32,984 nt of DNA from Nitrospirota bacterium (GTDB taxonomy: Bacteria > Nitrospirota > Thermodesulfovibrionia > UBA6902). The notes under the pieces were generated by a model. It ran no database searches, was not told where the DNA came from, and saw nothing but the letters and a program-made list of their open reading frames with translations. Numbering within the stretch: the stretch's first letter is position 1; the number at the start of each line of letters is the position of its first letter. Of the stretch, positions 2,584 to 32,984 are shown piece by piece. The DNA lies in NCBI GenBank assembly GCA_016222915.1, contig JACRQA010000156.1:1-32984 (forward strand). Direction: 5' to 3'. Made by a program: the position numbers and the translations under genes.

Positions 2584-2605
2584 AGTGAGAAAGAAGAAGG
2601 GAACA

Positions 2606-3036
2606 GGGGCACAGAGGCACAAAGGCACAAAGTAAACACATACAGGGATTTAATTGTATGGCAGAATGCCATGCTGTTTGTAACCCTAATTTATTCATTA
2701 ACCAATAAGCTTCCTAAAGAAGAATCTTTCGGATTAATCTCACAAATCAGGCGAAGTTCCGTCTCTATTCCAAGCAATATAGCAGAAGGTTATGGTAGAA
2801 ATTCAAGCAACGATTATATTAGATTCCTTCAAATATCAATTGGTTCTCTGTACGAATTGCAGACCCAGCTAGAAATCTGCCTTAATCTAAAATATGTATC
2901 ACAGCAAAGGTTTGATGATATAAATGAAAAGAGCAGAGAAATAGAACGTATGCTTAGCAGTTTAATAAACAAAATAAATCCGAAGAGATGAACTCGACGA
3001 CTTTGTGCTTTTGTGCCTCAGTTACTCTGTGCCTTG
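2606..3036. mobile_element. IVS-like unit: four-helix-bundle gene enclosed by inverted repeats
   Basis: The left arm (2606-2633) is built of GGCACAGA / GGCACAAA / GGCACAAAG units. The right arm (3000-3036) reads ACTTTGTGCTTTTGTGCCTC, then TGTGCC. The reverse complement of the left arm matches the first 20 bases of the right arm at 19 positions (the mismatch would be a G-U pair), and six more bases match after an 8-base insertion. The enclosed gene is of the family coded inside intervening sequences of bacterial 23S rRNA, which are also excised hairpins with the gene in the loop. Here the unit is outside rRNA, exactly between yebC and the ruvC remnant. No target duplication is obvious. Mobility is inference. 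Confidence 0.5.
2671..2991 (+). CDS. Four-helix-bundle protein (23S rRNA intervening-sequence protein family)
   Basis: The sequence fits the S23/IVP four-helix family: YSLTNKLPKEE, SFGLISQIRRSSVSIPSNIAEGYGR, DYIRFLQISIGSLYELQTQLEIC. These proteins form small pentameric helical bundles; some are coded in 23S rRNA insertions and related ones (Avd) serve diversity-generating retroelements. No reverse transcriptase or variable repeat is seen nearby. The family normally begins M-x-x-x-Y-R-D-L-I-V-W-Q, and here in-frame codons just before the ORF-track Met read TYRDLIVWQNAM. The real N-terminus therefore lies about 13 residues upstream, but no ATG, GTG or TTG exists in that frame back to the stop at 2581. 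Either ATT at 2653 is used, or the start codon has been lost and the gene is decaying. Confidence 0.8.
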   Translation: MLFVTLIYSLTNKLPKEESFGLISQIRRSSVSIPSNIAEGYGRNSSNDYIRFLQISIGSLYELQTQLEICLNLKYVSQQRFDDINEKSREIERMLSSLINKINPKR

Positions 3037-3043
3037 TATTAAT

Positions 3044-3465
3044 ATGCGCATAATCGGGATTGACCCCTGAACTGTTACCTGTGGTTATGGTGTTGTGGAA
3101 TTGACCGGCGGGAAGCGGGAAACGAAATATTTAACTGCCGGCGAAGTGAGATTAATAAGCCTGACCTGCTGTGCCTGGAAAAAATTTTCTATCACAAAAG
3201 CATCCGTTCGGCCTTTGCCCTGGGCTCTACACGCGGCGTGGTCCTGCTTTTGTCCGCGCAGAACAATCTCCCTGTATCGGAATACAACCCTACCGAAGTA
3301 AAAATGGCCCTGACCGGCTATGGGAGGGCCGAGAAAAGACAGGTACAAGACATGGTCAAGATAATCCTTAATCTCAAATCCTCGACCCGGAAATTCAGCG
3401 AAGACAGCACCGACGCCCTCGCCCTCTGCATCTGCCACATCAATTCATCAACGTTTAAATTCTAA
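3044..3465 (+). pseudogene. ruvC: ruvC remnant (Holliday junction endonuclease), stop codon plus internal deletion
   Basis: From the ATG at 3044 the frame reads MRIIGIDP, then TGA, then TVTCGYGVVE. RuvC normally has GIDPG here, so a Gly codon (GGA) has become a stop. The same frame continues to about TAGEVR, after which homology moves to another frame: KPDLLCLEKIFYHKSIRSAFALG, SEYNPTEVKMALTGYGRAEK and DSTDALALCICH, ending at 3465. The roughly 25 residues that normally link these parts are missing. The acidic residues of the active site (Asp in GIDP, Glu in LEKIF, the Asp pair in DSTDA) are still recognisable, so the loss looks recent. ruvA and ruvB do not follow. The long ORFs of the track here (3085-3438 minus, 3095-3301, 3238-3465) are pieces or shadows of this remnant. 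Confidence 0.85.
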
Positions 3466-4025: not shown

Positions 4026-4056
4026 CTCAACCCGGATTACGCATTTGGTCGCGGCA

Positions 4057-4207
4057 GGTAACGGAGGCAGTTCTGAAAAACGAATTTGGAGCGGGGCGTC
4101 CGGTACAGACATGAAAATGTGTTGTGTATAAATCAGAGGTTATGTTACCAGTCTTATAAAAGACCTGTCCCGCATTTAATTCGTTTTTCAGAACTGCCTC
4201 TGTTACC
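4057..4207. mobile_element. MITE-like element with 30-bp terminal inverted repeats
   Basis: Bases 4057-4086 (GGTAACGGAGGCAGTTCTGA...) and 4178-4207 (...TCAGAACTGCCTCTGTTACC) are inverted copies agreeing at 29 of 30 positions, 91 bases apart. Just inside, GCGGG and CCCGC add a further short pairing. There is no coding sequence inside: the 69-aa minus-strand ORF crossing it has no support. The form, about 151 bp with long terminal inverted repeats, fits a non-autonomous transposable element. I see no target-site duplication. It also sits between convergent genes, so it could act as a two-way terminator, though the loop is long for that. Confidence 0.55.
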
Positions 4208-4208
4208 T

Positions 4209-32251: not shown

Positions 32252-32984
32252 TTATCTCCCCTTCATATGATACAAGATATGCGGTAACGGGAATCCGTCC
32301 CGCTATTGCTTCAGCATAATTTTTCGCGGCATTGCAAACTGCTGCAAAGGGGTTGGGGGTCAGGGGTTGGGTGTTAGCGTTGATTAAATCAAATATCTCT
32401 CTTGCAGTATTAAACTCATAACCCTTAACTCCTAACTCTAAACTCAGATTATGCAAAAAATCTCTCGCCTTCTTAATATCTATCGCCCCGAACTTCACAT
32501 GCGTCTGCGGAGTTGCCATGGCTATTTTAACCATCTTGGCCCACTGGGCGCAAAGGTGGATTTTCTTGAAGCCGTGCTTCACGGCCTCTTTCAATGAATA
32601 TTCAAGATAATCTCCCATAAGGACGTAAACTTCTTCGGGCAATTTATATTTCTTCATGTGCGCTTTTTCTGACGAACGCCCTGCAGAGATAACTATCTCT
32701 TTATGCCCCATCGCCTTTGCAACGTCCATGGATGATGAAATGGTCGCTGTCCACGCCTCTGTTGAAACAGGTTTGACAATGCCTGTGGTGCCGAGGATTG
32801 AAATGCCGCCGACGATGCCGAGACGGTAGTTCAACGTCTTCTTAGCAAGCTCTTCACCGTTTGGGACGGAGATGGTGATTTCAAGAAGGGGCAAGGATTT
32901 AAGATTTGCAATCGATTCATTCTTGTTTGACCCTTGACCCCTGACCCCTGACCCCGCTGTAATAGCTTCCATCACCGCCTCTTT
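32235..32984 (-). CDS. cbiD: Cobalt-precorrin-5B C1-methyltransferase (CbiD), 5'-truncated by the window
   Basis: CbiD methylates C1 in the anaerobic pathway. The frame is open to the window edge (KEAVMEAIT before the track's Met), so about the first third of the protein is outside. Family segments are [53 protein letters not shown] and [15 protein letters not shown]. Three repeat insertions lie in frame: [11 protein letters not shown] near the edge, [12 protein letters not shown] and [12 protein letters not shown] in the C-terminal part. It is the first gene visible in the minus-strand operon and overlaps cbiET by 17 bases. The operon start, and any cobalamin riboswitch, would be beyond the window. 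Confidence 0.93.
32349..32377. repeat. GGGGGTT/GGGGTCA heptamer array inside cbiD
   Basis: GGGGTTG, GGGGTCA, GGGGTTG and GGTGTTA run at 7-base steps. The coding strand reads NTQPLTPNP in frame. Confidence 0.8.
32413..32447. repeat. AACTCnn heptamer array inside cbiD
   Basis: AACTCAT, AACCCTT, AACTCCT, AACTCTA and AACTCAG run at exact 7-base steps. The coding strand reads [12 protein letters not shown] in frame. Confidence 0.85.
32928..32955. repeat. TGACCCC heptamer array inside cbiD
   Basis: Units TGACCCT, TGACCCC, TGACCCC and TGACCCC. The coding strand reads GSGVRGQGS in frame, between [10 protein letters not shown] and the SVPNGEE region. Confidence 0.88.

Follow-up and report, generated by a model that had tools for sequence, protein, structure and literature searches.

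A free-standing, IVS-like gene-in-hairpin unit between yebC and ruvC of a Nitrospirota genome and its probable place in a widespread class

The DNA analysed here (the window, 32,984 nucleotides) is a contig of a Nitrospirota bacterium (GCA_016222915.1, JACRQA010000156.1) and represents contig 124 (C124) of a 3.0-Mb draft genome labelled G000. Between yebC and ruvC, the window harbours a gene of the 23S rRNA intervening-sequence protein (IVP) family, PF05635, held between inverted repeat arrays. With a probability of about 0.68, this unit is a (probably decaying) member of a widespread class of free-standing, single-gene hairpin elements resembling the rRNA intervening sequences (IVS), in which inverted arrays of 7-8-nt repeats enclose a PF05635 gene, and which would be expressed from host transcripts and spread via a hairpin intermediate with the aid of the IVP. 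The recurrence of this gene-in-hairpin plan in several phyla suggests compact mobile DNA of a class that has been little described.

The inserted unit and its site

In a close relative (G002), whose yebC is 97% identical to that of the window, the yebC stop is followed immediately by the start of an intact ruvC (..GATGGGATAG|ATTGCGCATTATCGG); the window unit (about 2584-3043) is therefore an insertion. The original prediction, that a normally adjacent gene pair had been split by a four-helix-bundle gene of the IVP family between inverted repeats, with the plan of the rRNA insertions but in protein-gene DNA, is thus borne out, while the extent that it gave (2606-3036) proved slightly too small. 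The features are as follows (+ denotes the forward strand).

2584-3043, +: whole inserted unit from the yebC stop to the ruvC start codon, as compared with the empty site of G002; ends approximate
2600-2633, +: 5' arm, a purine-rich array of units of about 8 nt (GGCACAGA GGCACAAA GGCACAAA)
2611-2991, +: IVP-type four-helix-bundle frame (PF05635), supported by profile matches and open back to the yebC stop
2671-2991, +: the same PF05635 frame counted from its first ATG, which would miss the first part of helix 1
3000-3033, +: 3' arm, a pyrimidine-rich inverted copy (CTTTGTGC TTTTGTGCC ... CTCTGTGCC)
1831-2583, +: yebC, intact, the upstream neighbour
3044-3465, +: ruvC pseudogene; compared with the intact G002 gene, it has an in-frame stop and a deletion of 70 nt

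The frame matches PF05635 (E=3e-41, profile search) as well as the NCBIfam four-helix-bundle family TIGR02436 (E=2.7e-40), and solved structures are available among its relatives (2GSC, 2RLD). It is the sole gene inside the unit, a Y1-type REP (repetitive extragenic palindromic) transposase gene not being among the contents, and an Rfam scan of the window returned no match. The arms are 34 nt each, 82% complementary and separated by 366 nt, with a predicted RNA pairing energy of about -50 kcal/mol. Furthermore, GGCACARAGGCAC-type units occur six times in the window at no more than two mismatches (0.57 expected), five of these matches lying within the arms.

No ATG, GTG or TTG stands in frame before the conserved N-terminus (TYRDLIVWQ) of the window IVP, and the first ATG (2671) falls inside it; normal translation may therefore fail in this copy. 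The nearest relative that has this unit, G004, contains a GTG within an arm unit that could act as a start, as read from its sequence. The unit in the window is probably an old copy undergoing decay.

Comparison with relatives found the sites occupied, decayed or empty. The yebC-ruvC gap is clean in G002 and many other relatives, while an intact IVP unit is present in G000, G004, G010 and G032, an IVP remnant between arms in G031, a gene-less hairpin in G045 and array fragments in G044 and G027; the site displays intermediates of decay. In G012, G039 and G043 the gap contains a GxxExxY gene flanked by other repeats (decayed in G042), and by coordinates such a gene also lies 3' of yebC on G004:C39 and G035:C129. 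The presence of both kinds of gene after yebC on separate contigs of G004 may reflect assembly or strain mixture. In the gene tree, the yebC-site IVPs of G000, G004, G010 and G032 cluster with modest support, with those of G008 and G020 nested among them, which fits old inheritance at the site and repeated loss. The three kinds of arms present at this gap point to separate insertions. As a separate observation, the RuvC proteins of relatives (L150, L153, L157, L168) carry in-frame low-complexity inserts after GYGIVE, which resemble translated intergenic repeats.

Arms around other members of the family

For a wider comparison, IVP loci were gathered from 61 relatives, from public genome contigs across phyla, and by place, yielding 158 distinct loci in a sample skewed towards Nitrospirota (83) and Bacteroidota (53). 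The arm score was defined as the best complementary match between the 200 nt upstream and the 200 nt downstream, and a score of at least 16 was taken as strong. Strong arms surround 68% of the loci, as compared with 1.5% of displaced flank pairs of the same loci and 4.6% of upstream flanks paired with downstream flanks of other loci; none of 29 yebC flanks used as a control reached even 14. In addition, arrays are still visible at many of the 25 lowest-scoring loci shown.

The arrays have a period of 7 or 8 nt, with multiples at 14 and 16, and the 5' arm has a mean purine content of 65% (67 first-pass IVP loci). Stretches of 24 nt with at least 75% self-identity at lag 7 or 8 occur in 17-23% of IVP flanks versus at most 2% in controls, and other lags are rarer in the IVP flanks (at most 1.9% for lag 6, 2-4% for lag 9 and at most 1.3% for lags 10-13). 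The sequence of the 7-8-nt units varies between IVP gene lineages. Similar arms around other family members, which the original prediction had named as the mark of a mobile element in its own right, are hence present around most of them, although the units are lineage-specific and not always GGCACAAA.

Gene and arms as one lineage

Arm similarity is correlated with IVP identity (Mantel r=0.56, 0/1000 permutations) and still climbs with it among pairs whose outer flanks are unrelated. Between-phyla pairs with an IVP identity of at least 60% have a mean arm 6-mer similarity of 0.094, with values of at least 0.1 in 33% of pairs, whereas within-genome pairs below 50% identity average 0.006 and none reaches 0.1. 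The three confirmed IVPs of the window genome (C124, C88 and C39, the arms of the last recognised by eye) each have arms of a different sequence. The clade around the window IVP has 24 members and spans Desulfobacterota, Lentisphaerae, SAR324, Planctomycetota, Kiritimatiellae, KSB1 and Nitrospirota, most of its members having GGCAC-type arms; such arms are borne by the closest IVPs to that of the window in Desulfobacterota, Planctomycetota, Kiritimatiellae and KSB1. Within this GGCAC-type group, the arms of a unit match each other on average better than those of other units (0/10000 permutations). Applied to ten Flavobacterium loci that share a single site, this test returned p=0.016.

The view that arms reflect a genome-wide habit was rejected, since they differ among the IVPs of one genome and are shared by related IVPs across phyla. 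That gene and arms travel together as one lineage across phyla is well supported by these sequence comparisons, and the comparative case for one heritable, spreading unit is good.

An IVP unit lies between cas1 and cas2 (L061, L065) in a Nitrospirae and apparently also a Planctomycetota genome, and a single-contig genome (G052) contains two IVP copies (L043 and L233) with equal scores and one internal stop each.

Placement and proposed mode of spread

Placement was surveyed at 124 armed IVP loci. An upstream neighbour was identified at 94 of them and shares the strand of the unit at 90, and the downstream neighbour does so at 73/84; the median distance is 2 nt from the upstream stop to the start of the 5' arm and 7 nt from the end of the 3' arm to the next start. 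As shown by this comparison of genomes, the units lie in sense orientation in the gaps between neighbouring genes of one strand.

The following mode of spread is proposed by analogy with rRNA IVSs (PMC4990558) and Avd. Presumably without a promoter of its own, the unit would be expressed from the host operon transcript, which would fold to one long hairpin with the gene in the loop, and RNase III would probably cut the stem, as in rRNA IVSs. The IVP, a homologue of the retroelement accessory protein Avd, may bind the arms and help the unit to spread via an RNA or single-stranded hairpin intermediate, and hairpins without a gene would have arisen by deletion or be non-autonomous copies. A bolder generalisation, which is put forward tentatively and has somewhat less than an even chance of being right, is that of a categorically new mobile-element class that encodes no transposase, integrase or reverse transcriptase; hairpins made of self-similar 7-8-nt arrays would be spread in sense into operon gaps by a four-helix-bundle (or PDDEXK-like) protein, and the rRNA IVS would be the rRNA-resident branch of this class.

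Gene-less hairpins and alternative explanations

Several observations weigh against the reading as a mobile element. Gene-less GGCACAAAG hairpins occur at several places in the window genome and also in relatives, and hairpins of the GGCAC-type repeat without a gene outnumber those with one; a second repeat family is likewise common in gene-less form. Arms without the gene at many places, which the original prediction had named as evidence against itself, are thus literally present, although the decay intermediates at yebC-ruvC qualify this. Many of the examined copies in G008 and G020 (L343-L382), which represent one genus, are miniature inverted-repeat transposable elements (MITEs) of about 150 bp, with IS66-like ends (GTAACTAYTCAGG) and GGCACAAAG arrays inside; 8-bp duplications are legible at several of them (for example, L353 and L356). 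Genomes with a GGCAC-armed IVP contain more GGCACAAAGGCAC copies (p=4e-6), but this correlation is therefore partly confounded, and mobilisation in trans by the IVP is not claimed from it. Some gene-less hairpins, then, are decay products and some are IS66-like MITEs. Four gene-less sites were also compared in four sister species (both flanks in one query). At the C126 site a GGCAC hairpin is common to two sister species. The flanks of the C158 site enclose hairpins or arrays in four of the five related species, and these belong to four different repeat families; unrelated repeats at orthologous intergenic sites indicate that site preference or in-place turnover also operates. Part of the between-phyla sharing represents whole-operon transfer (cas1-cas2 in L061 and L065), and the sense orientation may reflect selection for expression and not an RNA intermediate. 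In addition, the window IVP has no normal start codon. The proposal of a mobile element in its own right draws on comparative evidence, and no transposition has been observed.

These points lend some weight to an explanation that takes the arms to be ordinary hairpin repeats of the host, REP- or MITE-like and dispersed by host transposases, and the IVP genes to be passengers caught between two copies. The frequency of gene-less hairpins, the IS66-like ends and 8-bp duplications in G008 and G020 and the mixed repeat families of the C158 site all speak for it. Nevertheless, IS66-like ends were found around 0/158 IVP units, flanking target duplications showed no excess among 106 units, and the arms track the gene lineage across phyla while differing between IVPs of one genome, which renders this explanation unlikely. 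A static accessory gene, with arms serving as RNA processing or stability hairpins and spread via homologous recombination and transfer of the surrounding operons, would account for same-site inheritance at yebC-ruvC, in Flavobacterium and at cas1-cas2; the similarity of arms among related IVPs that sit at unrelated sites and in different phyla, together with the empty site in so close a relative as G002, makes it improbable. As for a recent escape of the unit from a host 23S rRNA IVS, the protein family and the stem-loop plan do match the published IVS (PMC4990558), but neither k-mers (in part of the loci) nor Rfam (in 20 loci) detected rRNA in or near the IVP loci tested, and repeat-array arms are general to free-standing members; such an origin is very improbable.

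Other repeats in the window

Positions 4056-4208 of the window contain a MITE-like palindrome, in which 40-nt inverted repeat ends (AGGTAACGGAGGCAGTTCTG...CAGAACTGCCTCTGTTACCT) enclose 73 nt. At 32326-32978, GGGGTCA/TGACCCC repeats in inverted arrangement lie within an open reading frame (ORF), apparently cbiD, and translate as in-frame insertions (for example, GVRGQGS and TQPLTPN); the adjoining ORF has a similar repeat stretch.

Comparison with known systems

No description of the repeat, or of IVP or GxxExxY hairpin units, was found among open-licence papers. The IVP family was among the Pfams often encountered in a search for immunity systems, which also noted the IVP-Avd homology (PMC10053308), and is one of the domains named in a figure legend of a survey of CRISPR-linked systems (PMC10910872). 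The window IVP is itself homologous to Avd of diversity-generating retroelements (DGR; PHROG Avd, E=1.3e-10, with weak bAvd and DivGenRetAVD matches). Its identification as a free-standing DGR Avd was rejected, the DivGenRetAVD score being 28.9 bits against a curated cut-off of 80.

REP elements with their associated transposases (REP/RAYT, REPtrons) and MITEs present palindromic repeats around a gene along with many gene-less copies elsewhere, and in this they resemble the IVP units. The protein of the latter is PF05635, however, and not a Y1 transposase, and the terminal ends and target duplications of MITEs and other derivatives of DDE transposons were not found around IVP units. PDDEXK_3/GxxExxY genes likewise lie between inverted repeat arms, in the yebC-ruvC gap of other genomes among other places, and their units are similarly placed (median distances of 0 nt from the upstream stop and 7 nt to the next start, all on the same strand). 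They differ in that the protein belongs to a nuclease superfamily and the repeat spacing is looser (about 8-11 nt by eye), with no clear period of 7-8 nt.

The nearest likeness is to the 23S rRNA IVS of Leptospira, Coxiella and others, with which the window unit shares the ORF family (PF05635), the plan of one gene within an inverted-repeat stem, and a horizontal spread that has been inferred for both IVS and free-standing units. In contrast to the rRNA IVS, the window unit lies outside an rRNA gene, between yebC and ruvC, and free-standing units in general occupy operon gaps between protein genes and possess gene-less derivatives; their arms of 7-8-nt arrays may be a further difference. In Coxiella the IVS was termed selfish, with unclear functionality and origin; the origin and spread of rRNA IVSs are described as unresolved, and the IVP is without an established function (PMC4990558). 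Should the free-standing units prove to be this element residing in protein operons, its origin and spread become testable in genomes with polymorphic sites. This reading, if true, would also help to explain the occurrence of IVP genes beside unrelated systems, as with the unit between cas1 and cas2 at two loci.
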